This document shows, piece by piece, positions 13,511-38,263 of a stretch of DNA of 64,000 nucleotides (position 1 is the first letter of the stretch; the number at the start of each line of letters is the position of its first letter). The DNA is from Brevibacillus sp. JNUCC-41 (lineage in GTDB: Bacteria; Bacillota; Bacilli; Bacillales; DSM-1321), in the NCBI RefSeq assembly GCF_014844095.1, contig NZ_CP062163.1:2503001-2567000 (forward strand), given 5' to 3'. The translations under genes were made by a program, and so were the position numbers. The notes under the pieces were generated by a model, which did not search any database, was not told the DNA's origin, and saw only the letters and a program-made list of their open reading frames with translations.

Positions 13511-13559
13511 GTTGGGGATGGAAATGTGTTAATCATGAAGTGATGGGAGGATGATAACT

Positions 13560-15922: not shown

Positions 15923-16210
15923 ATGGGGAAGCACCATGATAGAGATTTTAAAATTTATGCTGCTCGATTAGTATTGGAAGAAGGCAGAAAACCTAGGGAA
16001 TTGGCTGAAGAACTTAATATCTCGACACCTACATTAAGAAATTGGGTCAACATCTATAAAGAAGCAAATGAAGAAGGCCTGGCGGACTCCAGTATTGGTT
16101 TTTCAGGTCTCAGTCAGAAAGAGGAAAAGGATAAAATAATTAAAGATTTACAGGAAGAGAATGAGATATTAAAAAAGGCAATGCACATTTTTACGAAACA
16201 ACCAAAATGA
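15923..16210 (+). CDS. Orphan IS3-family OrfA (HTH transposase subunit)
   Basis: A 95-aa protein with an N-terminal HTH (HDRDFKIYAARLVLEEG, then ELNISTPTLRNWV) and a C-terminal leucine-zipper-like helix ending EENEILKKAMHIFTKQPK, the usual end of IS3/IS150 OrfA. AAAGGAG precedes ATG 15923. No OrfB (DDE integrase) is found downstream; instead a strong terminator follows within 20 bases. It is either an IS remnant whose OrfB was lost, or an OrfA kept as a DNA-binding regulator between the transporter and NRPS operons. The frame is intact. Confidence 0.8.
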   Translation: MGKHHDRDFKIYAARLVLEEGRKPRELAEELNISTPTLRNWVNIYKEANEEGLADSSIGFSGLSQKEEKDKIIKDLQEENEILKKAMHIFTKQPK

Positions 16211-17946: not shown

Positions 17947-20900
17947 ATGATGAAGATGAATTCTTTAGCGAATCTATTTGAAGAAAGTGTTAGGGAATAT
18001 GGAGACAATATTGCAGTAAGAAATAAGGATCAGCAATTTACTTATAAAGAAACGAATATCTTGGCAAATAAAATGGCGATGTACATAAAAAACAAAGGGA
18101 TAAATAAAGGTGATAATGTCGGAATCTATATTGAAAAGTCGGAGCATGTTTTATTTTTAATCATAGCACTCCTTAAATTGGGGGCTACCTATGTACCTAT
18201 CGACCCTAAAAGTCCTGATGAAAGAGTAAAGCATATAATAAAGAACTCAGAATTGAAGTTATTGATTGGGGATAAAGGCCGGATTAGCGGCATTGATTGC
18301 AATTATGTAACCCTCGATGAAGTGATAGAGAATTCAAATGATATAACCGGTGAGAATTTCCATATCTTAATTGATCCAAAGGATCCAGCCTATATCATTT
18401 TCACATCGGGCTCTACTGGTAAGCCTAAAGGAGTTTGCGTTTCACATGAAAATGTCATGAACTTGTTTTTAGGCTGCGACGGTTTGTTCGAGTTTAATAA
18501 TAAAGATATATGGACATTTTTCCATTCCTACGCATTTGACTTCTCCGTCTGGGAGATGTGGGGGGCTTGGATATATGGCGGAGAAGTTGTAGTGGTTTCA
18601 TTTGAGGAAAGCAGAAATCCAATATCCTTTGTTGATTTATTGATAAGTACACAAACAACCGTTTTCAATTGTACACCAAGCGCTTTCTTCGAGGTGATTG
18701 GTGAGCTCATAAACCGACAAAATGAATTAAGTTTAAAATACATCATTTTTGGAGGGGAAGCATTAAACTTCAAGAAATTGACACAGTGGTTTTCTCCCGA
18801 AAATGACAGGCTGCCAAAGTTAATAAATATGTACGGAATAACTGAAACCACCGTTCATGTAACATACAAACACATCACTAAGAATGATGTGGAAAAAGGA
18901 ATTACGAATATCGGAAAAGTCTTGCCTCATCTTGGGTTCAAGGTGATGAATCAAAATGGAGAAGAAGTAACTGGAGATGAAGAGGGCGAGTTATACGTTT
19001 CAGGAAAAGGTGTTTCGCTAGGCTATTATAAAAATACCATGATGAATAAGCTGAAATTTACGGATATTGATAATGTTCGCTACTATAAGTCAGGGGATGT
19101 AGTGAAAGTTTTGGATGATGGTGATCTGCAATATATCGCCAGGAATGATGAGCAAGTGCAGTTAAGAGGTTTCAGGATTGAATTAGGGGAAATAGAGAGC
19201 TCGTATAATGATTTGAAAAACATCAGGAATGCAGTCGTTACGATGGATAAAGCGTTTAATGATGATATGCACTTATTTTTATACTATGTTGCTGATGAAG
19301 AATTAGCTGCTGATTATTTGAGGGAAAGTGTAAAGAGCTCATTGCCAGCCTATATGATCCCAAGCTTTTTTATCAAGGTGGACAGCATCCCCCTAACGGT
19401 AAATGGCAAGCTGGATAAATCCTTATTACCCAAATTCGTCATAAAAGACAGTGAAGCTCCATCAAATATCGAGAGTCCAGTGGCTGAAACAATTAGTGAA
19501 AAAGTAAGAGAATTGGTTGGTGGCATCATAGGCAATGGGGTTATAAAAAATAATCAGTCCCTACTTGAATGTGGAATGAACTCATTATCGATAATGAGAT
19601 TAATTGTCAATATTAAAAATCAATTTCAAATTGAAATGGCTCCTTCAGTTTTATTGGAGAACGACACGATTATGAAATTATCCCGAGTCATAGAAACTCG
19701 TCAAAAAGAAGGGGGAAAGCAAGATTATACACCGATCAATATTAATGCCAGAAATACATACCCTTTAACATATGAACAAGAAAATTTGTGGTTCATTCAC
19801 CAAACCAATGCAGACAAGTCGTTATATAACATCGTTTTTTCGTATGAAATATCAGGTGAAGTGAATGAAGGAAATCTGGAACTATCTTTAGATAAGCTAA
19901 GCAATAAACATCAAATTTTAAAAAGTGTCATTAGAGAAGAAGCTGGAATGGGCACCTTGGCTTTCGATGAGTCGATTCATCATGACATTACCTATTTCGA
20001 TGTTTCGGATCTTCCTCTAGACATGCAGGAAGAAAAAATAAATTACTTGGTGAAGGAAGAAACGGAAAGGCAATTTGATTTAGGAAATGGTCCCCTCTTA
20101 TCGATTGCGCTAGTGAAGACAAATGAATGTGAATATCAATTATTATGTAACATCCACCATATTATTTTTGATGGTTGGTCGATTCCATTAATGATCAATG
20201 ATTGGTTTTCCATTTATGAGGAAATCAAGAATGGTGAACGAAATGATAGAAATAACCAATCAATCCAATATGGAGATTATGCTTTATGGCAAAAAAACTC
20301 GCCAAATTATGTAAGTGGTAAGGATAATGAGTTCTGGAGTAATGAAATAACTGCATTACGGCAAAAGTCTTTATTACAATATGATCATCAAAAAACCGGA
20401 GAAGGTAAAAGCACTTCCGATATTATCAGCTTTTCGTTACCTAAAGAAATTCAAAACAACCTGGAAAGTCTTCATAAAAAAACGAAATCGACTTTGTTCA
20501 TGAGTTTACTTACTGCCTATCAAACCTTTTTATCAGTGTACTTTGATGAAGAGGAAGTTGTCGTCGGGAGTCCTTTGGCAAAGAGAAACCATGTGGACAC
20601 TGAACAATTGATAGGATATTTCGTTAACACATTGCCCTTTAAATTAAATGTATCCCAGGAAGATTCATTTGAAGAAATTTTGCGGAAAAATATAAAAAAT
20701 ATTGCAGGTGTTTTTGACCATCAAAATTTACCTACTAAGGAAATTTTGAAATATTTATCGGCAGAAAGAACCATGGAAACTACGCCATTATTCGATACAA
20801 TATTTGTCCTGCAAAATAACCAGAAAGAAAAGCTGGCATATAGAAATTTCACGTTAAAGCCGAAAAAAATCAATACCTTTAAAGCTAAATTTGATTTAGT

Positions 20901-23900
20901 TGTTCAGGCAGAAGAAATGGATGGGGATGAAATATTCATTTCGTTTGAATTCAACAAATCATTATTTAATAAAGCGACGATTCAAAGAATGGCTAGTAAT
21001 TTTCAGTATTGGCTGCAAGAGATTACAACCGAGGGAAACAAGAAGATAAAGGACATCACCTATTTAGAGCCTGCACAGTTACGATCGATAATCGAAATGG
21101 GTACAGGCAATGTAAATCAAGAAGTGGAAGATCATCGTTTTGAAGATGTAATTGCTAGGTTTGAGAATAAAGTACGTACAAATTTCAATGATGTTGCCAT
21201 TGTTCATGGTGATGACCAGGTGACGTATAGCGAGTTAAATGCCCGGGCAAATCAGGTGGCACACCGATTATTCCGGAACCATGTAAATGTAGAAGATAGA
21301 ATCGGGATTTTTATGGATCGATCGATCAATATGGTTACGGCCATTTTAGCCATTATGAAAGTTGGGGCGGCATATGTGCCTTTGGACCCGTCACAACCAG
21401 AGTCACGGCTGAAACATATGATTGAGGATTCTCAACTCACATATTGTTTAAGTAATGAAGAAGGACTTTCAAAGTATCCCGGTGATGAAGGGAAACTAAT
21501 ATGTATCGAAGACATACTAAAAGAGCGGGAAATTGAATGCGAAGAATTCGTTTCAAGAAAGATATCGGAAAGTGATCTGGCCTATATCATCTACACTTCA
21601 GGAACAACAGGTAAACCTAAAGGGGTCATGATTGAACATGGAGGGTTGGCTAACCTCTGTAATTGGCATATCAATTATTATTCTGTCGATGGAAAAGATG
21701 CAGCAGTACTAGTTTCGAATACATCTTTTGATGCTTCCGTTTGGGAGATATTCCCTTACTTGGCAAATGGGAATAAACTCCTGATATTGGATTACTATGA
21801 TTTATTGGATGTAGAAATCCTTTCGGAGAAGTTAGAAAAGGAGAAAGTCACACTCGCGTTTTTTTCAACGGGACTGCTCGAGCAATTATTTATCAACGAT
21901 ATGAAATTTCCAGAATCAATCAGAGCCATTTTGACAGGGGGAGATCGTTTAAAAACGATACCCGATCATTTGAACTTTGATTTATATAATAATTACGGGC
22001 CGACTGAGGGCACCGTCGTTTCGACAGCATATAAGGTACTTCCAAGTGATGATACTGTGATTCCGATCGGAAAGCCGATCTTAAATGCAGAAGCATATGT
22101 GTTCAACACCAGGATGAAGCCAACTCCTAAGGGTCAAATAGGAGAGCTGTATATCGGCGGGAGAGGCATTGCAAGAGGATATATAAATAATCCGGAGAAA
22201 AACGTTGAAAGCTTCATCCCAAATCCGTTCAATCCTTCAAGGAAGCTATATAAAACAGGGGATTTAGTTAAGTATACCGAGGATGGAAATTTACTATTTG
22301 CAGGCAGAGCGGATGACCAAGTGAAAATCAGGGGATATCGTATCGAACTTGGCGAGATCAGTGCCGTTCTAAATAAATGCACAGGTATAAAGGATTGCTT
22401 TATAGCGATAAAAGATGAATCTAAGGCAAAGAAATTCATCATTGCTTATTATATATCCGACAATGACCTGGAAGAAAATTATATCCGGGATTATATGAAG
22501 AATCATCTTCCCCAATATATGATTCCTTCTTATTTCATTAAAATGGAGTCATTTCCGCTAACGGTTAACGGCAAAGTCGACATGAAGAGTCTGCCGGATA
22601 CTAAAACGAATACGGAAGGAACCGACAACAAAAGTGCCATTAATGAAACGGAACAAAAATTGTTAAAGATATGGAAAGAGGTACTGAATAATCAGGAAAT
22701 AACCATCTTTGATAACTTTTTCGAATGTGGGGGAGACTCCATCCTAAGCATTCAAATTTGTTCACTTGCCAAGAAAGAAAATCTTTTCATTACTTCAAAA
22801 AACATCTTTGAAAAACAAAGCATCGAAGAGCTGGCAAAGGTTGTGGAATTGACTGGCGATTTAACGATAAATCAGTCTGATGTTTTTGGAAAGGCGCCAT
22901 TTACACCTATTCAAAATTGGTTTTTCACTCAACAAATAAATAATTATAATCATTGGAATCAATCTGTAACGTTAAAGGGCTACCCGAAGATGAATGAGAA
23001 ACGGATGCAAAAGATCATGGCTCATATCGTTAGGCATCATGATGTGCTGAGATCAAGGTTCAATAAAGATGAAGCATTTTCGAAAGTGGAAAAGCATATC
23101 GACCCGACTGAAAATTGGACTATGAATTATGTAAATCTATCGAATGTGAATAAAGATGGACAGGAACGGGAAATAGCTAGACTCGGGAACGATGCACAGC
23201 AGGGCATGAACATTTCAAACGGTCCACTGATGAAAATTGAATGCATCAATACTGGCCAAAATGAGCATGTAATCATTTGGATCATTCATCACTTACTTGT
23301 TGATGGGGTTTCCTGGAGAATCTTGATCGAAGATTTTGATCGGCTATATATTCAGGATGTCAACGATCAAGAACTAAAACTGGATAATAAAACGACATCA
23401 TATAAGGAATGGGCGAATAATCTAAACCAATACAAAAATAGCATTCCATTAGGCATTAAAGAGTACTGGCAGAATGAATATGAGGCAGTAAACGAAAGTG
23501 CCCTAGTCAAAACAGGGAATGTTTACGATGGAAAATCATTTGAATTGAAGCTGAATAAAGAGATTACAAACAAAATCTATAATGAAATGACAAAAGCGTA
23601 TAAAGCATCCATTGATGAAATATATTTATCCATTTTCGCAACGCTAATCGGGAATTATTTTAATAAAAAGGATATTCATTTCACTTTGGAAGGACATGGT
23701 CGCGAAGAATTATTTGCAGGTGTCGATTTGTCCAGGACAGTAGGATGGTTTACGACTATGTGCCCGGTTTATATAGAAAATAAAGAAACCATTTCGAACA
23801 CGATTCAAGGTACAAAGAAAAAGTTAAGGACACTGCCTAATAAAGGGATCGAGTATGGGATCCTGACCGAATTATGTGGCGAGACACATATGAAACGAAA

Positions 23901-25488
23901 TAGGCCGATTATCAGTTTTAATAATTTAGGGAGATTTCACCAAAGTAATGAATTGGCTGCAAAAGAGGTCATCTTTTTTAGTGAACAAGATATTCAACAT
24001 AATGCCTATACCGAGCATGAAGTCGATATTGAATTGCTTGTAGTGAACGAAGAGCAAACTATAAAAATAAACTATAACAGACATTTCGTAAAAGAAGATT
24101 TTGAGAGATATATTCAACGCAATTTGCCGGAATTGTTAAGGGCATTGGAAGAAGAAACAAAATTGGTAAAACAGATGTACCGTCCGGAGGACTTTCCATT
24201 GTTGGATATGCCTGAAGAGGAACTTAACCAACTACTGCGCAAAGAAACAGGAATTGTTGATATTTATGAATTGACTGCTTTGCAAAAAGGAATGTTGTAC
24301 CATAGCTTGTTTGATAGTGAGAGCAGCCAGTATAAAGTGCAACTCATATTTGATATTAACGGTTTCCTGGACGTCGAAAAATTAAAGAATGCCATTGCGA
24401 CAACGGCAGGGAAACATGACATTTTAAAAACGAAATTATATTCGAGTAAAAAAGGGTTATTCTACCAACTGCTAATGAATTCCGTGGATACCGAGATTGA
24501 ATATGAAGAAATAATGGAACAACAAGAAAAGCTGGAAAAGTTGTTAGCGGATCAATATAAGATGATAGATATCGAGAACAATAGGTTGAATCGCTTCATG
24601 ATCGTTAAGCATACGGACAATGAATACCAATTAATATGGACATTCCACCATATTATTATGGATGGCTGGAGTTATTCGATGGTTATTAATGACATCTTTA
24701 ATTCTTATCATTCAATAACACCATCATCATCCGGTAGTGCTTCATTTAAAGAGTATGTTGAATATATGAAAGGTTATACGAGTAATGAGGAGCTGCGGAA
24801 ATATTGGGCAGGGAAATTGGAGGGTGTCCGAAATTCCGGATCCAGTATAACGGGAGTATTGGAAGGCGAGGGATACATTGAAGATGGTTACTTGAAAGTA
24901 CTGGATGAGGAATTGATTAATACCATACAACGATTCTGTCAGGAATACAAGATTACCATGAATACTTTCTTTCTAACTATATGGCTAGCCACTTTAAAAG
25001 AAGTAAAAGGTACGGAAAATGTATGCTGCGGCGTAGTTACATCCGGCAGGAATATCCCAGTCCGGAATATTGGGGCCATGGTTGGTCCATTTATCAATAC
25101 TGTGCCATTTATAAAGCATATCAGCCAAGAAAAGACTTACATTGAGCTGCTCGATGAAGTTCAAAAAGAGTTTTTGGAACTAAGTGCCTATGAGAATACA
25201 CCATTATCAGAGATTTATGAGTGGGCTAATTTGGAGAATCATTTGTTTGAATCATTATATGCCTTTGAAAACTATCCTATGGTACTAGCTAATAATGATG
25301 AAATCATTGTGAGTTTGAAAGAAGGACGGGAAACGACCCATTATCCAATCGTCATTATCATCACCCCTGGTTCAAGTGTTCAAATTAAGTTTAATGAGGC
25401 AGCGGTCACTTCAAAGTTAAGGTCATCAGTCCTTTCTATATTTAATCGAATCTTAAGCGAAATGTTAGAAAAAATGAAAGTTAAGTGA
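17947..25488 (+). CDS. NRPS 1: A-T-C-A-T-E-C (modules 1, 2 and start of 3)
   Basis: A 2513-aa synthetase. Domains in order: A1 about 10-500; T1 (Ser546 in ECGMNS); C about 605-1050 (HHIIFDG near 740); A2 about 1070-1560; T2 (Ser1598 in ECGGDS); E about 1650-2070 (HHLLVDGVSW near 1780, GHGRE, SRTVGWFT); terminal C about 2100-2513 (HHIIMDG). Reading the ten pocket residues by eye gives A1 DFWNIGMVHK (Thr) and A2 DAWFLGNVVK (Leu), both well-known codes. There is no starter C domain, so residue 1 keeps a free amine. The final C follows an E domain and starts LTALQKGMLYHS, typical of D-acceptor C domains. The chain ends after this C with no A or T; the next gene supplies T. Confidence 0.92.
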   Translation: MMKMNSLANLFEESVREYGDNIAVRNKDQQFTYKETNILANKMAMYIKNKGINKGDNVGIYIEKSEHVLFLIIALLKLGATYVPIDPKSPDERVKHIIKNSELKLLIGDKGRISGIDCNYVTLDEVIENSNDITGENFHILIDPKDPAYIIFTSGSTGKPKGVCVSHENVMNLFLGCDGLFEFNNKDIWTFFHSYAFDFSVWEMWGAWIYGGEVVVVSFEESRNPISFVDLLISTQTTVFNCTPSAFFEVIGELINRQNELSLKYIIFGGEALNFKKLTQWFSPENDRLPKLINMYGITETTVHVTYKHITKNDVEKGITNIGKVLPHLGFKVMNQNGEEVTGDEEGELYVSGKGVSLGYYKNTMMNKLKFTDIDNVRYYKSGDVVKVLDDGDLQYIARNDEQVQLRGFRIELGEIESSYNDLKNIRNAVVTMDKAFNDDMHLFLYYVADEELAADYLRESVKSSLPAYMIPSFFIKVDSIPLTVNGKLDKSLLPKFVIKDSEAPSNIESPVAETISEKVRELVGGIIGNGVIKNNQSLLECGMNSLSIMRLIVNIKNQFQIEMAPSVLLENDTIMKLSRVIETRQKEGGKQDYTPININARNTYPLTYEQENLWFIHQTNADKSLYNIVFSYEISGEVNEGNLELSLDKLSNKHQILKSVIREEAGMGTLAFDESIHHDITYFDVSDLPLDMQEEKINYLVKEETERQFDLGNGPLLSIALVKTNECEYQLLCNIHHIIFDGWSIPLMINDWFSIYEEIKNGERNDRNNQSIQYGDYALWQKNSPNYVSGKDNEFWSNEITALRQKSLLQYDHQKTGEGKSTSDIISFSLPKEIQNNLESLHKKTKSTLFMSLLTAYQTFLSVYFDEEEVVVGSPLAKRNHVDTEQLIGYFVNTLPFKLNVSQEDSFEEILRKNIKNIAGVFDHQNLPTKEILKYLSAERTMETTPLFDTIFVLQNNQKEKLAYRNFTLKPKKINTFKAKFDLVVQAEEMDGDEIFISFEFNKSLFNKATIQRMASNFQYWLQEITTEGNKKIKDITYLEPAQLRSIIEMGTGNVNQEVEDHRFEDVIARFENKVRTNFNDVAIVHGDDQVTYSELNARANQVAHRLFRNHVNVEDRIGIFMDRSINMVTAILAIMKVGAAYVPLDPSQPESRLKHMIEDSQLTYCLSNEEGLSKYPGDEGKLICIEDILKEREIECEEFVSRKISESDLAYIIYTSGTTGKPKGVMIEHGGLANLCNWHINYYSVDGKDAAVLVSNTSFDASVWEIFPYLANGNKLLILDYYDLLDVEILSEKLEKEKVTLAFFSTGLLEQLFINDMKFPESIRAILTGGDRLKTIPDHLNFDLYNNYGPTEGTVVSTAYKVLPSDDTVIPIGKPILNAEAYVFNTRMKPTPKGQIGELYIGGRGIARGYINNPEKNVESFIPNPFNPSRKLYKTGDLVKYTEDGNLLFAGRADDQVKIRGYRIELGEISAVLNKCTGIKDCFIAIKDESKAKKFIIAYYISDNDLEENYIRDYMKNHLPQYMIPSYFIKMESFPLTVNGKVDMKSLPDTKTNTEGTDNKSAINETEQKLLKIWKEVLNNQEITIFDNFFECGGDSILSIQICSLAKKENLFITSKNIFEKQSIEELAKVVELTGDLTINQSDVFGKAPFTPIQNWFFTQQINNYNHWNQSVTLKGYPKMNEKRMQKIMAHIVRHHDVLRSRFNKDEAFSKVEKHIDPTENWTMNYVNLSNVNKDGQEREIARLGNDAQQGMNISNGPLMKIECINTGQNEHVIIWIIHHLLVDGVSWRILIEDFDRLYIQDVNDQELKLDNKTTSYKEWANNLNQYKNSIPLGIKEYWQNEYEAVNESALVKTGNVYDGKSFELKLNKEITNKIYNEMTKAYKASIDEIYLSIFATLIGNYFNKKDIHFTLEGHGREELFAGVDLSRTVGWFTTMCPVYIENKETISNTIQGTKKKLRTLPNKGIEYGILTELCGETHMKRNRPIISFNNLGRFHQSNELAAKEVIFFSEQDIQHNAYTEHEVDIELLVVNEEQTIKINYNRHFVKEDFERYIQRNLPELLRALEEETKLVKQMYRPEDFPLLDMPEEELNQLLRKETGIVDIYELTALQKGMLYHSLFDSESSQYKVQLIFDINGFLDVEKLKNAIATTAGKHDILKTKLYSSKKGLFYQLLMNSVDTEIEYEEIMEQQEKLEKLLADQYKMIDIENNRLNRFMIVKHTDNEYQLIWTFHHIIMDGWSYSMVINDIFNSYHSITPSSSGSASFKEYVEYMKGYTSNEELRKYWAGKLEGVRNSGSSITGVLEGEGYIEDGYLKVLDEELINTIQRFCQEYKITMNTFFLTIWLATLKEVKGTENVCCGVVTSGRNIPVRNIGAMVGPFINTVPFIKHISQEKTYIELLDEVQKEFLELSAYENTPLSEIYEWANLENHLFESLYAFENYPMVLANNDEIIVSLKEGRETTHYPIVIIITPGSSVQIKFNEAAVTSKLRSSVLSIFNRILSEMLEKMKVK

Positions 25489-25499
25489 GGGGAATATAT

Positions 25500-25766
25500 A
25501 TGGGAACAACTATTGCTGTGAAGGAACGGTTAATTGAGGAAAAGCTTATAGGATTTTGGAAAGAGATTTTAGAACAAGAAACGATAGGTACAGATTCCAA
25601 CTTCTTTGACTTAGGCGGGAATTCCCTTTTAGCCATGCAATTCATTCAAATGGTGAAGAATAACATGGGAGTGAAATTGCCAATCAAAGTGATGTTCGAA
25701 CAATCAACCATCCAGGAACTATCCTTACTTATCAAACAATTGGATGATATTAATAAGTTAGGTTGA
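25500..25766 (+). CDS. Free-standing peptidyl carrier protein (module 3 T)
   Basis: An 88-aa carrier protein, a single T domain with the site FFDLGGNSLLAMQF; Ser42 should carry phosphopantetheine. ATG 25500 follows GAGGGGAA; the upstream ATG at 25485 overlaps the previous gene. It lies between the terminal C domain of NRPS 1 and NRPS 2, so it completes an A-less module 3. An A domain from elsewhere must charge it, perhaps A1. It is separated from NRPS 2 by 26 bases. Confidence 0.88.
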   Translation: MGTTIAVKERLIEEKLIGFWKEILEQETIGTDSNFFDLGGNSLLAMQFIQMVKNNMGVKLPIKVMFEQSTIQELSLLIKQLDDINKLG

Positions 25767-25792: not shown

Positions 25793-28700
25793 ATGAACAG
25801 GATAATCAGTGAAACGGAAGATAGGCTATTAAACTTGATTTCAATTGTTATCAAACCTTTTAAAATTTCACTAATGGAGGATATGAATGAATCACTAAGC
25901 ACAAATGAAAAAAAAGATGAGTTCTTGTCTTTGATAAAACGGGAGTTTGGTATTCAATTAACACCGGAAATCATTTCAAGTCAATGGAATATAGAAAAGC
26001 TGGCAAGTTTTCTGGACATGCTCATCAGCATGAGGGAAGTCGAGGTAAATAAGCCTTATAAACGTGGGAAAAGTGAAGGGATGCTATCTCATAATCAAGA
26101 TCGGATGTATCTGTTTGACAGCCTGAATGAAAGGAAAATGCTCTATAATATGCCATTTAAATTCATTTTAAATGGCATAGTGGACATCGATGACCTGCAA
26201 CAGGCATTAGATTTCATGATTGAACGTCATGAAACATTGCGAACCAATTTCAAGGGTGAAGAACATCAAATCCTTCAATTCTTATCAAAAAAAAGCAGAA
26301 ACATAATTGCCTATGAGGACTGTCGGGAAGTAGATCCCGAAGTCAGTAATATAATGGTCACCTCCCATCTTACTGAAGAAATGGAAAGATGTTTCGACCT
26401 GGAAAATGATCATTTATTTAATATGAAACTATTTCGAATTGACGAAGAAAAGCATTATTTAGTATGCAATTTCCACCATATCATTTTTGATGGAGTATCG
26501 TTTGTCACCTTTTTCGAAGAGTTAATGGAGATTTATGAAAGAATTCAAACGGGCAAGGTTGGGGATATTCCTCCTCTGGACATACAATATTTAGATTATG
26601 CTGTCTGGCATAAGGAGTGGGTCAAGGAAAGTACGCCAAGCCAAAGGAGGTTTTGGGAGAGTTATTTAGATCAAGAGGAAGACGCATTGGAACTTCCATT
26701 TGACTTTCAACGTCCAAAATCACCTTCATACTCAGGTGGAAGGCTGGAAATGGCGATAACGGACGAACTCCGTGTATTGATAGACAGGATTTTAAAGGAG
26801 AAGGGCACGACTTTATATGCTTTTATGATGACAGCTTATCAAGTGTTTTTAAGTCAATATACCGGGAAGAATCAAATCATTGTCGGGAGTACCGTGGCAA
26901 ACCGCGGCCAGGTAGAATTTGCCCGGACAGTTGGATGCTTTGTCAATACGCTGCCATTGAAGCTGACCGTGGATGCCACAGAATCATTTCATGAAATATT
27001 GAACCGAAATCGTAAAGTGATTTTTGATGTATTGGAACATCAGGCCTTTCCATTTGAAAAAATCGTTGAAATCATTAATCCGGACAGGGATCTCAGCCAT
27101 TCTCCATTGTTCCAAACAGCACTGGCAATGGAAGAAAGCTTTGATGGGAACTTTAACAATTCATTCTTCACTCTTGAACAAGACAAATTCGAAATTCCTT
27201 ATTCAAATTATGACCTGACCATAAAAGTGAAAGGTTCCCATAACCTGATCCTAGAGTTTGAGTATTCCGATGAACTTTTTAGACGGGAAACAATTGAAAG
27301 ACTCATGTTGAGTTTTGAAAAATGGTTATTCCAAATTTGCAGAAATGGCGATAGACCTATACGTCTTTTGGAGCATTTAGATGACAATCAAATGAATCAA
27401 TTGTTATTTGATTGGCAAGGTGAGGTTTCGGATGCACATCAAAATGAGACGATCACCTCTATATTCGAAAGAATCGTTAAGAAGCATTCGAACAAATTAG
27501 CCGTTGCTGATAATGGTAAGTCCATCACCTATTCGGAATTAGATCAACGATCAAATGTGATTGCTAAATTGCTTAGAAATAATATCGAAAATGGCTCCAA
27601 TAAGGTAGGCCTGCATGTAAACAGATCGATTGATATGGTGATAGGCATGTTGGGAATCATTAAAGCCGGATGTGCATATGTTCCGCTTGATCCCATGCTG
27701 CCAGCTGAAAGGTTGGAATATATCATCAATGATTCGAAAATGGATATATGCATTACGAATCAAATTGAGGTTCCTGCCTTAAAAAAAATAGCTAAAGTGA
27801 TCAATCTTGAATCCGTCCATTACGTGGATACCGATTGCTGTAACGAATCGATTGCGCCATCCGATCTGGCTTACATAATCTATACTTCGGGAACGACTGG
27901 AAAACCTAAAGGTGTCATGTTATCCCATAGAGGAGTAGTGAATTTAATAATAAGCCAAAACAAGTACTTACAACTTGATGAGACCTCTAGGGTATTACAA
28001 TTTGCCACTTTTAATTTTGACGCTTCCATCTATGAGATTTTTGGAAGCTTATTAAATGGTGCAGAGCTGCATATCGGGAATAATAAGGAGGAAATGTTTG
28101 ATTTATTCGCTTTGGAAAATCAAATCAAAAATGAAAAGTTAACTCACCTAGTATTGCCGCCTGCAGTTTTGCAAGAACTCAATATTGAGGAATCTGATGT
28201 GAAGTTCGTTGGTTCGGCCGGATCTGAATGTCCAATAGCTTTGCTGGATCGCTATCGAAATATAAACTTTTATAACGCCTACGGTCCAACGGAATATTCA
28301 GTATGGACCACGATTGAAATGTTTAAAGCGTTCGAAAACAATGAGACTGCTAATAATAAAGTATCGATAGGAAAACCTATCCTGAATACTGATATCTATT
28401 TACTAAGTCCGGAGCAAAAGCTTGTCCCGATAGGTGCCACAGGGGAAATATATATTGGTGGTGAAGGGTTAGCTGTTGGCTATGTGAATAATGATGATTT
28501 AACGAAAGAAAAGTTCATTGATCATCCTTTTAAATGTGGAAAGCGTTTATATCGCAGCGGCGACCTTGCAAAATTCACGAGTGATGGTGAGTTGATTTTT
28601 CTGGGGCGTAAAGATAATCAAGTGAAAATAAGAGGTTTCCGGGTGGAAGTTGATGAGATTTCGGTCAATCTCAATGCGTATCCTCAAGTAAGTGACTCAT

Positions 28701-30511
28701 TCATTAAGGTTCAGGATCAGCCAAACTTAAATAAACAAATAATCGCTTATTTCACATCCAAACAACAAGTTGATTATGACCACTTAAAAGCATTTTTAAA
28801 AGAGAGATTACCAAGTTACATGATTCCTTCCTTCTTTATGCAAGTGGATAAATTTCCGTTAAATGCAAATGGGAAAATTGATTCAGCGCTTCTACCGGTA
28901 CCCGTAACTAGAAGCAATACATTGGAAGAACCTGAGACGATCAATGAGAAAGTGCTTCTTCAAATTTTTAAGACGGTACTAGGGCTGGATGACATAAGTA
29001 TCCGGGATAACTTTTTTGAACTTGGCGGTGATTCCATTCAGAGCATTCAAATATGTTCTCTAGCAAGGCAGGAAAATATAATCATCAGTCCAAAATCCAT
29101 TTTTGAAAATCAAACGGTAGCAGAGCTGGCAGCGATCGCGAAAACCGAAAATAAGGTCATGATTCAACCAATAGCCACTAGGGGGAATGTGGAACTGACC
29201 CCCATCCAAGAATGGTTCTTTGCAGAACACACGACTTCCATCAATCATTGGAACCAGTCCATTGTTTTTAGTCAAGATTCCTGTGCTCAAATGGAGGACA
29301 TTGAAAAAATTCTATCTCAAATCGTGGAACATCATGATGGATTGTTAACCCTATTTAAAAAACATGAAAATAAATATATCGGGAATATAGACTCAAAACA
29401 TAAAACATGGGAGTTAGTCTATAAGGATTTACATCATTTAGATGATGAAACGCGAATAAGAATGAGAGATGAATGGGAAAGTAAGGCTCAGCGTTCATTG
29501 GACATAAGTAATGGACCGATCATGAAAATGCTTGTTTTAAAAGAACAATCAAACAAGTATCGCTTCTTTTGGGTAATCCATCATTTATTGATTGATGCAG
29601 TTTCCTGGAGAATTTTACTTGAAGATTTCAATGCTCTCCATGATCAAGCATTGAACAATCAAACAGGGAAGCTTACTTATAAAACTTCATCATTCAAAGA
29701 CTGGTCAAACTTCTTGAAAAAATATAATGAATCGTTGATGGACCCTGAAACAATCCGTTATTGGGAACAAAAAACAAAAAGTGAAATAACGGATTTTAAG
29801 GTAGCGGAAGACTTTATAGCTAAAGAAGAAAGAACAATGGAGAAATCATTCAGTGAAGAAGAAACTGAATTATTGATCCAGGAATTTTCAAGGCAATCAA
29901 AAGCGACTGTGGAAGAAGTATTGTTGTCATTAATTGCAAAGAGTTTTAAAAAATCTTTTGAGGTGAAGAACTTCTGGATCGAAGTAGAAGGGCATGGCAG
30001 GGAAATGGCGGATGAAACAATGGATGTTACTCGGACCGTTGGCTGGTTTACTGCGATGTATCCGATATTGCTGCATTCAGGAGAGACATTTGATGACACT
30101 TTAAAAAACACGAAGAATGCTATAAGGGAAATTCCAAATAAAGGTTTTGATTATGGCGTTATCAAATATTTACGCCCTGGGGTCATTAAGGAGCCGGATA
30201 TCCACGTTACTTTTAATTATTTAGGAAAATTGGACTCCCAATTTGAATCATCCAAAAGCAGGGACTTTGGTGAGTTTGAAAAAAAACCAAAAATCCATTT
30301 CCTGGCATTGATCCAGGACGGAAAACTATCAATAAAAATAATCTCAAAATTAGCTGAAGAAAAGATGAACTTAATAATAGAAGCTATTGGTAATGTCGTC
30401 ATGGAAATCAAGGGAACTGAATTTGACCAAGCTTCTTTAATAGAAAGTGATTTTCCAGATGCGATGCTTACTGAGGAAGATTTGTTTCATATATTGAATT
30501 CCAATAAATAA
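25793..30511 (+). CDS. NRPS 2: degenerate T-C-A-T-E (module 4)
   Basis: A 1572-aa synthetase. Residues 1-75 look like a carrier fold with normal spacing (IS plus 22 residues to KREFGIQL, then NIEKLASFLDML), but the GGDS site reads LSTN, with Asn38 replacing the serine, so it cannot be primed. C is about 95-530 (HHIIFDG near 230), A about 560-1045, T has Ser1081 (ELGGDS), and E is about 1130-1570 (HHLLIDAVSW near 1262, GHGRE, TRTVGWFT). The A code reads about DAYVGAAVWK, which I cannot assign. The E motif has DA instead of DG. ATG 25793 is chosen over the earlier frame start because a GAGGTG precedes it. The product is residue 4, in D form. Confidence 0.9.
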   Translation: MNRIISETEDRLLNLISIVIKPFKISLMEDMNESLSTNEKKDEFLSLIKREFGIQLTPEIISSQWNIEKLASFLDMLISMREVEVNKPYKRGKSEGMLSHNQDRMYLFDSLNERKMLYNMPFKFILNGIVDIDDLQQALDFMIERHETLRTNFKGEEHQILQFLSKKSRNIIAYEDCREVDPEVSNIMVTSHLTEEMERCFDLENDHLFNMKLFRIDEEKHYLVCNFHHIIFDGVSFVTFFEELMEIYERIQTGKVGDIPPLDIQYLDYAVWHKEWVKESTPSQRRFWESYLDQEEDALELPFDFQRPKSPSYSGGRLEMAITDELRVLIDRILKEKGTTLYAFMMTAYQVFLSQYTGKNQIIVGSTVANRGQVEFARTVGCFVNTLPLKLTVDATESFHEILNRNRKVIFDVLEHQAFPFEKIVEIINPDRDLSHSPLFQTALAMEESFDGNFNNSFFTLEQDKFEIPYSNYDLTIKVKGSHNLILEFEYSDELFRRETIERLMLSFEKWLFQICRNGDRPIRLLEHLDDNQMNQLLFDWQGEVSDAHQNETITSIFERIVKKHSNKLAVADNGKSITYSELDQRSNVIAKLLRNNIENGSNKVGLHVNRSIDMVIGMLGIIKAGCAYVPLDPMLPAERLEYIINDSKMDICITNQIEVPALKKIAKVINLESVHYVDTDCCNESIAPSDLAYIIYTSGTTGKPKGVMLSHRGVVNLIISQNKYLQLDETSRVLQFATFNFDASIYEIFGSLLNGAELHIGNNKEEMFDLFALENQIKNEKLTHLVLPPAVLQELNIEESDVKFVGSAGSECPIALLDRYRNINFYNAYGPTEYSVWTTIEMFKAFENNETANNKVSIGKPILNTDIYLLSPEQKLVPIGATGEIYIGGEGLAVGYVNNDDLTKEKFIDHPFKCGKRLYRSGDLAKFTSDGELIFLGRKDNQVKIRGFRVEVDEISVNLNAYPQVSDSFIKVQDQPNLNKQIIAYFTSKQQVDYDHLKAFLKERLPSYMIPSFFMQVDKFPLNANGKIDSALLPVPVTRSNTLEEPETINEKVLLQIFKTVLGLDDISIRDNFFELGGDSIQSIQICSLARQENIIISPKSIFENQTVAELAAIAKTENKVMIQPIATRGNVELTPIQEWFFAEHTTSINHWNQSIVFSQDSCAQMEDIEKILSQIVEHHDGLLTLFKKHENKYIGNIDSKHKTWELVYKDLHHLDDETRIRMRDEWESKAQRSLDISNGPIMKMLVLKEQSNKYRFFWVIHHLLIDAVSWRILLEDFNALHDQALNNQTGKLTYKTSSFKDWSNFLKKYNESLMDPETIRYWEQKTKSEITDFKVAEDFIAKEERTMEKSFSEEETELLIQEFSRQSKATVEEVLLSLIAKSFKKSFEVKNFWIEVEGHGREMADETMDVTRTVGWFTAMYPILLHSGETFDDTLKNTKNAIREIPNKGFDYGVIKYLRPGVIKEPDIHVTFNYLGKLDSQFESSKSRDFGEFEKKPKIHFLALIQDGKLSIKIISKLAEEKMNLIIEAIGNVVMEIKGTEFDQASLIESDFPDAMLTEEDLFHILNSNK

Positions 30512-30589
30512 GGGGTTAAAGAGTTTAATAGAATGATTGCAGTCGGCAGATATGGATGACACAAGAAAATGGAATCGGGAGGCGCAAAA

Positions 30590-33500
30590 TTGGAGAAATC
30601 TATTCAGAATATTTACTCATTAACTCCGCTTCAAGAAGGAATCCTTTATGAACTGGAAATGAACAATACAGCAGAGAACCTTTACATTTCTCAAATGCGA
30701 ATAAGGATAACGGGCTCTCTTGAAGTACATGCATTATGTCAGGCATGGAGCCAGGTTGTAGAACGTCATGAAGCATTAAGAATGAAGGTCATCTCTAAAA
30801 ATATCGAAAACAATGTTCAGGTTGTATTCAATGCAATGGATTATCAACCAGAAATAATCGATATGATAGAGTTTAGTAAACATGATCAATTAAATGAAAT
30901 TCAAAGAGTGATATCCAAATCCCAGGAGATGGATGTGAATAACTCCAATTTGATGAAACTCCAGTTAGTGAAAATTGAAGAAAATCAGTATATCTTGATT
31001 TGGACTCATCACCATATAATTTTGGATGGCTGGAGTACCAGCATAGTCATCGATGAACTCTTCGTTATTTACAGCCGAATTGTAGGAAAAGAATCCAAAC
31101 GGCTTATTGAAAAACCAAAGCAATATGGAGATTTTATCCGGTACATGAATAAAATCGATGCGGAAGATCTAAACCATTTTTGGAAAGAACTAGCAAAGGA
31201 TATTGAGCAGCCGACAATCACATTCCCCGCTCTGAAGCATGTGAAGGAAAACCAGCAGGAAAATGATCTATTTTGGGAGCTGGATAAGAAACAGAGTGAG
31301 CTTTTAAGGGAGTTTGCCGCCAAAAACCATGTAACGATGAATGTATTATTACAGTTAATTTGGTCGATCGTCCTAAAGGAAATGTCCAATCAAAATCGAA
31401 TAGTCTTTGGAATTGTAAGCTCTGGCAGGTCGAATAACCTATTTAAATCCGAAGAAATTGTTGGGCTACTCATTAATACGATCCCGATGATAGTTGAAAT
31501 GAACGAAACAGATAGCATTACTGATTTACTGAAACGCTTCCAGGAAACATTAAACAATATGCTGGATTACTCTCAAATTTCTTTAGTGGATATCAAAAGG
31601 CATACGAAATTAAAGAAGGAAGATCCCATTTTCGAAACTTTATTTGTTTATGAAAATTATCCGGAAGCGAAAAACGATGGATTTGAAATTAACTGGGAAA
31701 TTGAAGGCGGGAAAGAGACACATAGCTTTCCATTATCATTACAGGCCCAGGATAATAAAGATACGATTAAATGCAAATTATATTTTAATCGCTGCTTCCT
31801 AGAACGTTCACTAGTAAATGGTATCCAATCAGCCTTCATGCAGATTGCCCATCAAATTACAAAAATACAGCAAATTGACGAAATATATGTCGATGTTGAT
31901 TTTTCAAAACTAAAAAATAATGTGAGTAAGAACCATCAAGCAACAAGTAACAATAAGATCGCATCCACATCTGTTAATCAAGAACTTAAAGAAATATGGC
32001 AAGAGTTTTTCTTGAACAGTGAGATTAATGAGGATTCTGATTTCTTTCAATTGGGCGGGCATTCGATAACAGCCATGAAATTGGTGTCTAAAATAAATAA
32101 AAGACTTGATGCGAATATGAAACTAGCCGATTTGTTTGAAAATCCTACATTGAAAATGCTAAGTCATAAGATCTTTCCGGAAGTGAATACGCCTCCGAAA
32201 GATGTTACATCTTTCGTGGAAAAGACATTTTTGGAAGTCTTATCAACAAGTCAAATCGATAAAAAGGCCGATTTTTTTGAAGTGGGCGGACACTCGATTT
32301 TAGCCATGAAGTTATTGACGAAATTAAACAAAGAATACAATCAAATTCTAACCTTGAAAAATATTTTTCAAAATTCAACAATTGATTCGTTGACGGCCTT
32401 CATCATTAATGAAATGTCAGATCATGACTTAGATCACAGTGAAGCACAACAAAAAGATCATGTTTTATCCAGTAACCAAGAGGCTTTGTGGTTCAACGAA
32501 AAACTTAATGGTAAGACAACCAATTATAATATCCCTCAGAAATATAAAATTACTGGTGCAGTGGATACTTCGATTATGGAAAAAACAGTAAACTGTGTCA
32601 TTAGTAGACATGAGATTTTAAGGACCACCGTCCGTGAAAATGCCGGGAAGGGCTACCAGGAAATCAAGGAAAATTTGTACATTAAAATAGATGAAATCGA
32701 CCTAACTGCATTAAAGCCCGAACAGCAATCGACTCGTATGCTGCAAATCGAAGAAGATGTCCAGTCGGAAATTTTTGAAATTGAAAAAGGTCCTCTCATG
32801 ACAGTGAAACTGGTTAAATTGAGCGAAAAAGAGTCTGTTTTATTTGTGAATCTCCACCATTTCATTTTTGACGGATGGTCAGTGAGTATATTTTTAGACG
32901 AATGGTTATCTTTTTATGACAGTGAAGTGAATGAAAAGGAACTCATCCTTGAAAACGACTTTAAACAATATAAGGATTTTGCCTTTGAGCAGAAAAGCTG
33001 GTTAGAACATAACATTAAAGAAGAATCGCTATTTTGGAAAACAAACCTATCTGGGGAATTACCTAAATTGGAGCTTCCTTTAGATACGATGCGTACAAAA
33101 GAAAACCGCACCGATGGCAGTAGTTTCATGGTGGAACTAACAAGTGAAGAGCTCCATGGTTTAAAGAGGATGTCCTTTGAACAAAACTCGACATTATTCA
33201 TGACGCTGCTAACGATGTATCAGTCTTTTCTAGCAAAATATACAGGTCAAAACGATATCATCGTTGGAAGTCCTTTGGCGAATAGAATGATAGAAGGAAC
33301 AGAAAAATCGATAGGTTATTTTGTCAATACACTGCCCTTTAGATTAAAGCTGGGACTTGAGGAGACATTCGAAGAGATTCTTGAAAGAAATACAAACCAT
33401 ATCATCGACATCTATGATCATCAGCAAATGACATTGGAGAAAATTGTTGAAGTCATTAACCCTGAAAGAAATTTAGCGAACACTTCATTATTTCAAACCG

Positions 33501-36500
33501 TCTTCATTTTACAAAATAATGCCAAAGCTTCATTTGAAAGTGAATACATAAAGTTAACGCCTGAAGTGATGAAATCAAAGGCAGCAAAATTCGATTTGAG
33601 TTTAGCTGCAGAGGAATATGAGGATAAGCTTTTGTTCGCTTTTGAGTATAATTCAGGGATCTTCAATGAACGAACGATTCAAACTCTAGCTGAAAATTTC
33701 TTAGAATGGATTAGGAAAATTACCTATCAGCCTGAACGATCGATTGACAAGGTATCTGTGGTGAGTATGCGGCAGGAAAAAGTATTATTGGAAGAATGGC
33801 AGGGAGAAACCATTCGCTTTGAGGGGATCAATGACACAATCCCAGAAGCCTTCCATAAAATTGTTGAGCGGTTTCCTGATAAGATAGCCATTGTTGATGG
33901 TCCGAGAACCATTACATATCGCGAATTGAATGATAAGAGCAATCGACTCTCACACTATTTACTAAGCAAAGGGATTTCTAAAGAAGAAAGAATCGGAATT
34001 TATATGAATCGATCAATTGATATGGTGACAGGGATGTTGGCAGTAATCAAAGCTGGTGCTGCGTATGTTCCATTGGATCCTCATTATCCTGATGAACGAT
34101 TAAGCTACATGGTGGAAGATTCGTCCATTTCCTATTGCTTGAGTCACAAAGAACTCGGAAAGAATGGTTTGATTGACTCATCCAAAATAATATATTTTGA
34201 AGATATTGAAAAAGAATCGGATCTGTTAATGGAAACGAATCTTCACATTGCGAATCAGAGTGACTTAGCATATGTCATTTATACCTCGGGAACGACAGGC
34301 AGGCCAAAAGGAGTCATGTTGGAACATAGTGGAATCATTAACTTAGTTTATAACCAAAATGAAATGATGTGTTTGGATACGTCAGCTAAAGTGCTGCAAT
34401 TCGCCACGTTTAATTTTGATTCATCCGTCATAGAGATTTTCAGCACACTCTTATTCGGTGCCGAGCTGCATATAAGTGTAGATAAAGAAAATCAATTTGA
34501 CATGAGTAAACTTGTTGAACAAATTAAGCGTGAAGGAATTTCTCATATCATTTTACCGCCTGCTGTGTTGAAAGAACTGCCAATCATTGAATTGAGCACG
34601 ATTAAAGTATTGGGATCTGCAGGTTCAGAATGTCCAGTTGAGCTCGTTTCAAAGTTTAAACATATAGCGTTTTTCAATGGCTACGGGCCTACGGAATATT
34701 CCGTATGTACAAGTTTTAAAATGTTTCCCCCGAATGAAGATGTTACAGATGAATTCGTTGTATCGATCGGGAAGCCTTTGACCAACACGGTTGTACTTGT
34801 GTTGGATGAAAATCGGAAACTAGTGCCGGCAGGGTCAGTTGGAGAACTTTACGTGGGAGGAATTGGGTTAGCTAGGGGATATTTGAATAATGAGAGCCTG
34901 ACAAATGAAAGATTCGTAGCCAATCCATTCAACCCTGCCGAAAAAGTATACAGAACTGGGGATTTAGTTAAGCATAACGAAGCTGGGGAATTAGTTTATG
35001 TAGGCAGGGCGGACGATCAAGTGAAAATAAGGGGATACCGTGTTGAACTATCGGAGATTAATGTTTCATTACGAAAAATAGCAGAAATCAAGGATAGTTA
35101 TGTAACGGTATTGGAAGATGGATTTGAGCATAAAAGGCTAATTGCTTATTATACGGTGAATGATGAGGTTTCGGTAGATTCAATCAGAAGAAGATTGAAA
35201 GAAACACTGCCTGCTTTCATGATTCCTGCTCATTTTATGCAACTGGATAAATTTCCTTTGACGCCGAATGGAAAAGTCGATCGGAAATCCCTGCCGAAAT
35301 GGACGGAACAGTTTGATGAGAGGCAGGAAAAAGTGCTGGATGTGCAAGAATTGTCCAAAACTGAAATAGAGCTTCTGACAATCTGGAGAAATGTTTTAAA
35401 CGATCCGACTATAGGACCGGAAGATAACTTTTTCGAATGTGGCGGTGATTCAATCATCAGTATTCAAATATGCTCTGCCGCCAAAGAAAAGGATTTATTT
35501 ATAACTCCTAAAGATTTATTTGAATGCCAAACGGTCCGTGAGCTAGGGAATGTTGTAAATGAGCTGGAGCAAAAACAAGTGGTTCAAGAAACAGTATCAG
35601 GTTATGTCCCGTTGACGCCAATTCAATCATGGTTTTTTAATGAAAACCATGAGAATATCCATCATTGGAATCAGTCAGTCGTTTTGATGAAGGATAATGC
35701 GTTGACGTCTGAACACTATAAAAAAATCATCATGAAATTAATTGATCAGCACGATGTTTTAAGGACATTATTTGAAAAACATGGTGATTCATATATCGGC
35801 AATATTTCAAATGCTGATACGGTATACGGTTTTCATGAGTACCATGTTTCAAGTTTTAAAGATGAAAAAAGCTTGAAGGAAATTAATGAGCTAGAAGAAA
35901 ACGCCCAACAAAGCTTGAATATACACAATGGCCCCTTGATGAAGTTCCTTCTATTCAGGGATCAAAGGGAGGTAAGGATTTTTTGGGTGATTCATCACCT
36001 TGTGGTTGATGGTGTTTCGTGGAGGATACTTCTTGAACATTTCGAAAGATGCTATCAACAGATAAAGAATGAACAAGAACCATCACTGCCTCTAAAAACG
36101 ACTTCTTATAAACAATGGTCCGAAAAACTAAATGAATACAAGAACACTGACCTACCGGAAGAGGCCGTTCAATATTGGGAAAAGGAAATGAATGTTCCGG
36201 TTTCTCCGCTGACGGAAGACTTAGGAGAAACGTGTGATTTTGAAAACATGTACAAAATAGTAGTGGATGGGGCCCAAACACAAAACCTCATTAAAAACAC
36301 TTTAAGAAAACATAAAACGACGATTGATGAAGTTTTATTATCCGTTATCGCACATGCACTTTCCAATCGAATGGGAATCGGTGAATTTTGGCTCGATTTA
36401 GAAGGACATGGAAGAGAGGATATTGATGATGATATTGATTTATCAAGGACGGTAGGGTGGTTCACCTCAATCTATCCAGTAAGGATTAAAGGAATGGCGA

Positions 36501-38263
36501 CTTTGGGCTCAACCTTAAGAAATACAAAAAACATATTGAGAAATGTGCCAAACAAAGGGTTTGACTTTGGAATCCTAAAGTATATTTCCAATCGGAATCA
36601 TAACTATCCAGATAGCCTTGTGAGTTACAACTATCTAGGCCAGTTTAATAACACGGGTGATATGGCACAAACCAATAGCAGCAATATCGATTCGAACTAT
36701 AAATTCCCATATAAACTCAATTTTGTCGCCAGCATCGTAAACAATAGACTCATGCTGAATATTATTGGCGATAGCAATAATGAGAACTTCCGAATGATAT
36801 GTAAAGAAGTTGAAGTACATTTAAACAAAATATTAAGTGGAAGTGCAGATTTGTATGACTCCATTGTCGAAACGGATTTTGAAGCTGAGAAAATAGTCGA
36901 TGGAAGCACGATCACCCATTTCATAAATAAGTTTAATAATATTGAAGAGATTTACCCAGTGACATCACTTCAAGAAGGAATGTTATTCCATAGTGAAGTA
37001 ACCCAAAGTCCTGAATATATTTCACAGCTATCCATTGATTTAGTGGGTGATCTGGACTTGGCTAAATTAGAAGAAGCCTGGAATGAAACCTGTAGAAAAT
37101 ACGATGTTCTAAGATCGGTTTTCAGGCGCAATCAATTGGGGGACCGTTATCAAATCATACTTAATGACATTTATTATGTGTTTAATCATGTGGATCTTAC
37201 GATGTTTAGTGAAGACGAGTCAGGATCCAAGATAGACAACCTTTTAGAGCATAGCAAAAACAGACAAACGGATTTAGAAAACGGTCCGCTCATGAACATC
37301 ACTTTGATACAGCTATCGGATCATCGCTATAAATTCATATGGACACATCATCATGCTTTAATAGATGGCTGGAGCCTGCAAATTGTCATTAATCATTTTT
37401 TGGATAATTACCGAAACCCATCCAATACGACAAAAGATAGTGATGAACATAAGAATGCTTATAAACAAGTCATGAATCATGTCAGAAATATTAATAAACA
37501 GGAAGAGGCAGCATTTTGGAATAAAGAATTGAGGGATTTCGAACAAGTAAAAGCACTAGTGAGTAATAAAGCGGATAAGGTAGCTTTTACATCGGATAAA
37601 GTTATTGAATATAGCGTACCTAAAGAGTTTACCGAAAGATTAATAGAATTATCCAAGCGACATAGAAAGACCATTAATACCGTTGTTCAAGGAGTTTGGG
37701 GCATCGTTCTATCCTACCTAAGTGAAAGCGACTCGGTATGCTATGGGGTGACAAGCTCAGGAAGGAACCTGAGCATTCCGCATATTGAATCAGCTGTAGG
37801 CTTATTGATCAATACTCTGCCATTCTCTTTGAAAATCGATTGGGATGTTGATTTGCAATCCTATCTAACTGCTATTCAAAACAAGCAATTACAAATGAGA
37901 GAGTATGAGTTCAGTTCACTTACGGATATAAAGAAATACGCTGAAATTCCATGGGATAAGGAATTATTCCAACATATATTTGTATTTGAAAATTATCCGA
38001 GCACAGAACTGGCAGAAGATTCGCAAATCATGATTGAAGATTCAGTTGGAAGTGAATCGACCAATTTTGATCTTACGTTCTCTGCGGCTGTAGTGCAATC
38101 CAAGCTGCATTATAAAATCATTTATAAAGAAAGTAAATTCGATGAAATTGAAATTTTACGTTTTATGGATTCCATGCAGGAAATATTCTTGAAACTAACA
38201 GAAGATGAAACACTACTATCTATTGGTAAATTAATAAATCACTTGAAAGTTGGGGCCCGATGA
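30590..38263 (+). CDS. NRPS 3: C-T-T-C-A-T-E-C (modules 5, 6 and start of 7)
   Basis: A 2557-aa synthetase. First C about 1-430 (HHHIILDG near 138; begins SLTPLQEGILYE, a D-acceptor type). It is followed by two tandem carriers with Ser492 and Ser569 (both GGHS) and no A domain. Then C about 625-1060 (HHFIFDG), A about 1090-1575, T with Ser1621, E about 1670-2090 (HHLVVDGVSW, GHGRE, SRTVGWFT) and a final C about 2110-2557 (HHHALIDG). The A pocket reads about DSIIGAGVCK, which I cannot assign. TTG 30590 is preferred because CGGGAGGCG precedes it by about 7 bases; ATG 30569 is the alternative. The last C passes the chain to NRPS 4, whose gene overlaps by 4 bases. Confidence 0.92.
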   Translation: MEKSIQNIYSLTPLQEGILYELEMNNTAENLYISQMRIRITGSLEVHALCQAWSQVVERHEALRMKVISKNIENNVQVVFNAMDYQPEIIDMIEFSKHDQLNEIQRVISKSQEMDVNNSNLMKLQLVKIEENQYILIWTHHHIILDGWSTSIVIDELFVIYSRIVGKESKRLIEKPKQYGDFIRYMNKIDAEDLNHFWKELAKDIEQPTITFPALKHVKENQQENDLFWELDKKQSELLREFAAKNHVTMNVLLQLIWSIVLKEMSNQNRIVFGIVSSGRSNNLFKSEEIVGLLINTIPMIVEMNETDSITDLLKRFQETLNNMLDYSQISLVDIKRHTKLKKEDPIFETLFVYENYPEAKNDGFEINWEIEGGKETHSFPLSLQAQDNKDTIKCKLYFNRCFLERSLVNGIQSAFMQIAHQITKIQQIDEIYVDVDFSKLKNNVSKNHQATSNNKIASTSVNQELKEIWQEFFLNSEINEDSDFFQLGGHSITAMKLVSKINKRLDANMKLADLFENPTLKMLSHKIFPEVNTPPKDVTSFVEKTFLEVLSTSQIDKKADFFEVGGHSILAMKLLTKLNKEYNQILTLKNIFQNSTIDSLTAFIINEMSDHDLDHSEAQQKDHVLSSNQEALWFNEKLNGKTTNYNIPQKYKITGAVDTSIMEKTVNCVISRHEILRTTVRENAGKGYQEIKENLYIKIDEIDLTALKPEQQSTRMLQIEEDVQSEIFEIEKGPLMTVKLVKLSEKESVLFVNLHHFIFDGWSVSIFLDEWLSFYDSEVNEKELILENDFKQYKDFAFEQKSWLEHNIKEESLFWKTNLSGELPKLELPLDTMRTKENRTDGSSFMVELTSEELHGLKRMSFEQNSTLFMTLLTMYQSFLAKYTGQNDIIVGSPLANRMIEGTEKSIGYFVNTLPFRLKLGLEETFEEILERNTNHIIDIYDHQQMTLEKIVEVINPERNLANTSLFQTVFILQNNAKASFESEYIKLTPEVMKSKAAKFDLSLAAEEYEDKLLFAFEYNSGIFNERTIQTLAENFLEWIRKITYQPERSIDKVSVVSMRQEKVLLEEWQGETIRFEGINDTIPEAFHKIVERFPDKIAIVDGPRTITYRELNDKSNRLSHYLLSKGISKEERIGIYMNRSIDMVTGMLAVIKAGAAYVPLDPHYPDERLSYMVEDSSISYCLSHKELGKNGLIDSSKIIYFEDIEKESDLLMETNLHIANQSDLAYVIYTSGTTGRPKGVMLEHSGIINLVYNQNEMMCLDTSAKVLQFATFNFDSSVIEIFSTLLFGAELHISVDKENQFDMSKLVEQIKREGISHIILPPAVLKELPIIELSTIKVLGSAGSECPVELVSKFKHIAFFNGYGPTEYSVCTSFKMFPPNEDVTDEFVVSIGKPLTNTVVLVLDENRKLVPAGSVGELYVGGIGLARGYLNNESLTNERFVANPFNPAEKVYRTGDLVKHNEAGELVYVGRADDQVKIRGYRVELSEINVSLRKIAEIKDSYVTVLEDGFEHKRLIAYYTVNDEVSVDSIRRRLKETLPAFMIPAHFMQLDKFPLTPNGKVDRKSLPKWTEQFDERQEKVLDVQELSKTEIELLTIWRNVLNDPTIGPEDNFFECGGDSIISIQICSAAKEKDLFITPKDLFECQTVRELGNVVNELEQKQVVQETVSGYVPLTPIQSWFFNENHENIHHWNQSVVLMKDNALTSEHYKKIIMKLIDQHDVLRTLFEKHGDSYIGNISNADTVYGFHEYHVSSFKDEKSLKEINELEENAQQSLNIHNGPLMKFLLFRDQREVRIFWVIHHLVVDGVSWRILLEHFERCYQQIKNEQEPSLPLKTTSYKQWSEKLNEYKNTDLPEEAVQYWEKEMNVPVSPLTEDLGETCDFENMYKIVVDGAQTQNLIKNTLRKHKTTIDEVLLSVIAHALSNRMGIGEFWLDLEGHGREDIDDDIDLSRTVGWFTSIYPVRIKGMATLGSTLRNTKNILRNVPNKGFDFGILKYISNRNHNYPDSLVSYNYLGQFNNTGDMAQTNSSNIDSNYKFPYKLNFVASIVNNRLMLNIIGDSNNENFRMICKEVEVHLNKILSGSADLYDSIVETDFEAEKIVDGSTITHFINKFNNIEEIYPVTSLQEGMLFHSEVTQSPEYISQLSIDLVGDLDLAKLEEAWNETCRKYDVLRSVFRRNQLGDRYQIILNDIYYVFNHVDLTMFSEDESGSKIDNLLEHSKNRQTDLENGPLMNITLIQLSDHRYKFIWTHHHALIDGWSLQIVINHFLDNYRNPSNTTKDSDEHKNAYKQVMNHVRNINKQEEAAFWNKELRDFEQVKALVSNKADKVAFTSDKVIEYSVPKEFTERLIELSKRHRKTINTVVQGVWGIVLSYLSESDSVCYGVTSSGRNLSIPHIESAVGLLINTLPFSLKIDWDVDLQSYLTAIQNKQLQMREYEFSSLTDIKKYAEIPWDKELFQHIFVFENYPSTELAEDSQIMIEDSVGSESTNFDLTFSAAVVQSKLHYKIIYKESKFDEIEILRFMDSMQEIFLKLTEDETLLSIGKLINHLKVGAR

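Follow-up and report, generated by a model that had tools for sequence, protein, structure and literature searches.

Residues 1–82 of KorB (25793–26038, plus strand; delimited by ortholog alignment, hhalign and AlphaFold2) are confirmed as a domain of carrier (thiolation, T) type whose phosphopantetheine serine is missing; to judge by its sequence this domain, here called T*, cannot be phosphopantetheinylated. We read T*, with middling confidence, as a retired carrier that has been kept, with no catalytic part to play, for spacing or docking at the junction between KorA/T3 and KorB, T3 being the free-standing carrier encoded between the two. In favour of this reading are the homology and predicted fold of T*, the loss of the serine and the GG pair everywhere, and conservation above the neutral level; further support comes from the lack of any other extra domain at the junction, and from the pairing of T* with a separate T3 in the relatives examined. 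Counting against it are the lowest constraint within KorB, a deletion in Solibacillus, the acidic character of both T3 and T*, and a poor model of the didomain with the following condensation domain, C4.

The koranimine locus

The NRPS cluster in the window (the whole stretch of 64,000 nucleotides analysed) matches the koranimine cluster (korA–D) of Peribacillus, known from Bacillus sp. NK2003 and P. frigoritolerans BE93 (PMC9640594), and the gene at 25793–30511 is korB. Relatives of the window's genome carry the names P. frigoritolerans and P. simplex, and the window's copy is counted with Peribacillus throughout. Cluster and gene order are like those of NK2003 and BE93, and the sizes agree with Table 1 of PMC9640594 for kfp (16577–17290, 237 aa), for KorD (korD, 38260–41163; A-T-R, 967 aa) and for the TE (korTE, 41183–41914, 243 aa), likewise for KorA plus T3, for KorB, and for KorC with its T-T pair; korB measures 4719 bp here against 4710 bp there. 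The accessible description of koranimine KorB (PMC9640594) makes no mention of the N-terminal serine-less carrier, which is described here.

KorA (17947–25488, plus strand) has the layout A-T-C-A-T-E-C by Pfam, translation and its size match to PMC9640594; it ends in C3 and is without the A or T domain of module 3 (Pfam, translation). The module-3 carrier, T3, stands free on the plus strand at 25500–25766 (88 aa from the ATG at 25500); a GTG start at 25485 is possible too, and over 25485–25766 T3 overlaps the korA stop (GTGA) in a frame that differs from that of korA. KorB follows on the plus strand as [T*]-C-A-T-E: T* is joined by a linker (26039–26080, residues 83–96, with an invariant K87-P88 in the ortholog alignment) to the LCL-like condensation domain C4 (26081–27412; Pfam PF00668, residues 97–538), with A4-T4-E4 making up the remainder (27413–30511, Pfam). 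KorC (korC, 30569–38263; C-T-T-C-A-T-E-C) contains the tandem carriers T5a–T5b (31982–32443, plus strand; Pfam), which have GGHS intact in both members and serve as the comparison pair. By its Pfam domain layout the assembly line has seven modules and five A domains; one leucine A domain, in KorA, provides for both the second and the third leucine, and KorD charges valine onto both tandem carriers of KorC (PMC9640594, quoting Evans 2011).

Three further observations concern the locus. A transposase-like helix-turn-helix ORF (15923–16210) lies just 5' of the kor genes, beside ABC transporter genes (11820–14276); the first carrier of KorA has an unusual box at residue 546, LLECGMNS, with GM for GG and the serine retained; and the E domain of KorB reads HHLLIDA at residue 1263, against the usual HHxxxDG, the DG being present in E2 and E6.

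The N-terminal domain of KorB

The korB frame starts at the ATG at 25793, behind a ribosome-binding-like GAGGTG, and is open for 1572 codons. Within T*, the carrier spacing on which the original prediction was built is kept, exactly 22 residues lying between S26 and K49, as in T3 (IG-22-KNNMGVKL) and T4 (IS-22-RQENIIIS). The serine box is lost, also as predicted: in alignment with T3, T4 and foreign carriers, residues 31–38 (25883–25906, plus strand) read MNESLSTN where carriers have FF[ED]LGG[DNH]S, and Asn38 (codon AAT, 25904–25906) occupies the position of the phosphopantetheine serine. In the ortholog alignment this position is N in Peribacillus (setting aside the frame-broken P. frigoritolerans T7-IITJ), V in Priestia, Y in Halalkalibacter and K in Solibacillus; all four genera have lost GG, and no conserved serine occurs anywhere in the loop. 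Helix II opens with a polar stretch (NEKKDE, VEKQNT, YAEQEA, KDELDK), as against the S-L-x-A-M of carriers, and in the Solibacillus domain some 12 residues of helix I and the loop are missing. Seven core positions are invariant across the four genera: L12, L13, F52, L56, L70, A71 and F73.

The Pfam PP-binding model gives no match to T* even at E ≤ 10; the sole Pfam match at that threshold, PARP_reg, scores 19.9 bits, below its cut-off of 26.8, and was taken as chance. A profile built from seven T* sequences alone and run on about 800 Bacilli genomes matches KorB orthologs strongly and then, at E-values of 1e-4 to 1e-2, ordinary NRPS carriers, which align in register with their GGHS serine on N38; a minority of its weak matches are unrelated to carriers. 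With hhalign, T* aligns to the carriers of the cluster over residues 5–79 (probability 91%, E 1.1e-6), and when it is compared with 128 slices of the KorA, KorB and KorC alignments, the best eight all hold carriers, the best non-carrier slice reaching 4.6%. KorB 1–236 aligns end to end with T-C didomains of other Bacilli, including Paenibacillus and B. velezensis, ungapped across most of the carrier part, and a sequence search of the PDB returns carriers as seven of nine weak matches, those of tyrocidine synthetase 3 (1dny, 2gdw, 2md9) being nearest.

The original prediction had staked itself on a four-helix carrier fold, and the AlphaFold2 model, computed from seven T* orthologs with no true carrier in the alignment, has that fold: the helices (7–20, 31–34, 38–52, 58–63 and 67–85) follow the carrier order, at pLDDT 82 and pTM 0.69. 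Foldseek ranks a peptidyl carrier first (4mrt; TMt 0.85, rmsd 1.4, probability 1.00, E 7.6e-3), and of the 50 structural neighbours listed nearly all are carriers. VIA-align Z-scores reach 11.9, and the TycC5-6 PCP-C structure aligns over residues 3–92 of the model; for helical bundles it is the agreement with sequence, rather than Z by itself, that is decisive. Since the profile search, hhalign, the AlphaFold2 model with its structural neighbours and the T-C didomain alignment agree, T* is a genuine carrier relative. It is like an NRPS carrier (PF00550) in its four-helix fold, its helix spacing and its position before a C domain (cf. TycC5-6, 2jgp), and unlike one in having no serine, no GG and a polar start of helix II, and in falling under Pfam detection; a standard domain search can thus miss a whole domain that starts an NRPS subunit.

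Constraint and descent

All T* sequences form one clade (support 100/99), so that the loss of the serine either predates the split of these lineages or travelled with the cluster. The original prediction saw in T* a former second carrier of module 3; its position agrees with this, but trees fail to place it among carriers, and constrained tests that group it with T3, T5b, T2 or T4 favour none of these groupings and reject none. The claimed mirroring of the T-T pair of module 5 likewise holds for layout, C3 / T3 / T*-C4-A-T-E running parallel to C5-T-T-C6-A-T-E of KorC, and is not borne out for ancestry, so that it is fairly described as a positional analogy rather than as demonstrated ancestry. 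T5a and T5b are clear sisters (support 99/97). A simple duplication of modules 3–4 into 5–6 is unsupported by the identities of domain pairs (C4–C6 31%, C2–C6 35%).

Within KorB, T* diverges fastest and is under the least constraint. In a comparison of five korB genes from Peribacillus it has dN 0.051, dS 0.104 and omega 0.50, against a korB median of 0.15 for omega and 0.22 for dS; among the 82-codon windows of korB its omega ranks in the top 0.1% and its dN in the top 5%. Its omega is inflated because local dS at the 5' end of korB is low; with dN set over the median dS of korB the ratio is about 0.23, and with nine sequences omega is 0.36. The low dS itself (0.10 over 25793–26038, against the median of 0.22) might reflect constraint on translation start or on RNA. 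These values, the highest omega of any such window among them, would be expected if T* were a vestige, left from a carrier duplication or from the splitting of module 3, which must only fold and not disturb C4; the deletions in Solibacillus and a divergence faster than that of every other KorB domain point the same way. We rank this as the main rival of a structural or docking role and consider it possible, if on the improbable side. Against it stand the retention of T* in four genera with invariant core positions, and the finding of no korB ortholog without T* among the orthologs examined in these genera. Identity to T* is 49% in Priestia, 38% in Halalkalibacter and 35% in Solibacillus, where C4 has 60, 66 and 50% and T4 has 75, 77 and 65%; the first two values, set against the 60–66% of C4 at the same distances, imply that T* is not drifting freely. 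Judged from these comparisons, T* is under purifying selection that is genuine though weak, and it is not evolving in a fully neutral way.

The KorA/KorB junction

The free T protein upstream of korB, which the original prediction had assumed, is real: T3 is a separate ORF in every relative examined (Peribacillus, Priestia, Halalkalibacter, Solibacillus), and the T3 of the window matches Pfam PP-binding at 2.9e-15 and has its box, FFDLGGNS, intact. In all of these relatives the genes for T3 and T* are adjacent, and in all four genera T* stands directly before a C domain with an intact motif, here HHIIFDG at KorB residue 228. By identity C4 falls with the LCL-like C2 and C6 and away from the C domains that come after E domains (C3, C5 and C7). 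The translations of the C-terminal end of KorA, of T3 and of the start of KorB show no further extra domain.

For T* as a retired carrier we propose the following. It descends from a thiolation domain and has retained the predicted fold of four helices and the site immediately in front of C4; there, where a carrier would sit N-terminal to C4, it would help KorB to engage the upstream C3/T3 unit, and peptidyl-T3 would thereby reach the C4 donor site without a competing second carrier. A docking or spacing role is what we infer for T*, and its persistence in four genera suggests a structural or docking piece. The model of the T*-C4 didomain is poor (pLDDT 59), and no orientation is readable from it.

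In a narrower and plausible form of this proposal, the one put forward in the original prediction, T* would dock specifically to free T3, serving as a docking domain devoted to a carrier acting in trans. The adjacency of the two genes, the separate encoding of T3 and the lack of a classical docking element at the junction favour such a specific contact. It is nevertheless rather unlikely: in most cases T3 and T* are acidic alike, which offers no simple charge complementarity, and a review of NRPS docking has no class in which carrier docks to carrier, listing COM, PAX and beta-hairpin domains, none with a carrier fold (PMC9113145). Moreover, korA of NK2003 is given as 7815 bp, encoding 2605 aa (PMC9640594), and KorA there seems to contain T3 in frame, i.e. 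fused; from this size, T* may lie where KorA and KorB meet even in strains without a free T3.

It is very improbable that T* is itself a conventional docking domain of the beta-hairpin, COM or PAX type whose likeness to a carrier is superficial. T* resembles these types in being a non-catalytic N-terminal element at a subunit junction, and its position, at the N-terminus of a subunit starting with a C domain, would be right for one; it differs in being carrier-folded, its model being all-helical and its structural neighbours being carriers. The all-helical model of about 82 residues speaks against a beta-hairpin domain, and the N-terminus of a Salinivibrio protein, which we take to be of the beta-hairpin kind, differs strongly from T* in sequence. 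A COM domain does not fit the upstream partners, C3 and the free T3, the C-terminus of KorA being without the terminal E domain of COM junctions. The four-helix-bundle docking class takes two helices from each subunit; in the AlphaFold2 model T* alone supplies the four helices in one chain.

That a sequencing or frameshift error hides a normal GGxS box is hardly credible: the frame of P. frigoritolerans T7-IITJ is indeed disrupted inside T*, but it is broken elsewhere too, T* recurs almost unchanged in a number of independent Peribacillus genomes, three further genera have it without the serine, and the other two frames across the former GGxS stretch run into stops. In T7-IITJ both korA and korB are broken at several places; since reading returns to frame some 16 residues later, these breaks are probably assembly errors.

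Two known systems invite comparison with T* as a retired carrier. The inactive carrier of the myxochromide assembly, which, as Wenzel is said to have reported in 2006, goes with module skipping, is likewise a substrate-incapable carrier within a working assembly line; T* differs in standing at the start of a subunit beside an active free carrier. The X domain of glycopeptide NRPSs, which has a condensation-type fold and recruits P450s, shares the principle of turning a dead NRPS domain into a recruitment platform, but is unrelated to T*. A search of the open literature for inactive or degenerate PCPs used in docking returned nothing relevant.

NRPS engineering is held up by the unsettled question of how free carriers and split modules are matched to the correct condensation domain. 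Here a single assembly line holds both an active tandem pair, T5a–T5b of KorC, and an inactive one, T3 with T*, and a naturally inactivated carrier kept at a subunit junction offers a clean test case. Tentatively, T* may represent a new class of NRPS docking element, in which a former carrier acts as the receptor and keeps either free T3 or C3, upstream, on the donor side of the C domain that follows; if this is true, a serine-less carrier would be the receptor that founds the class.
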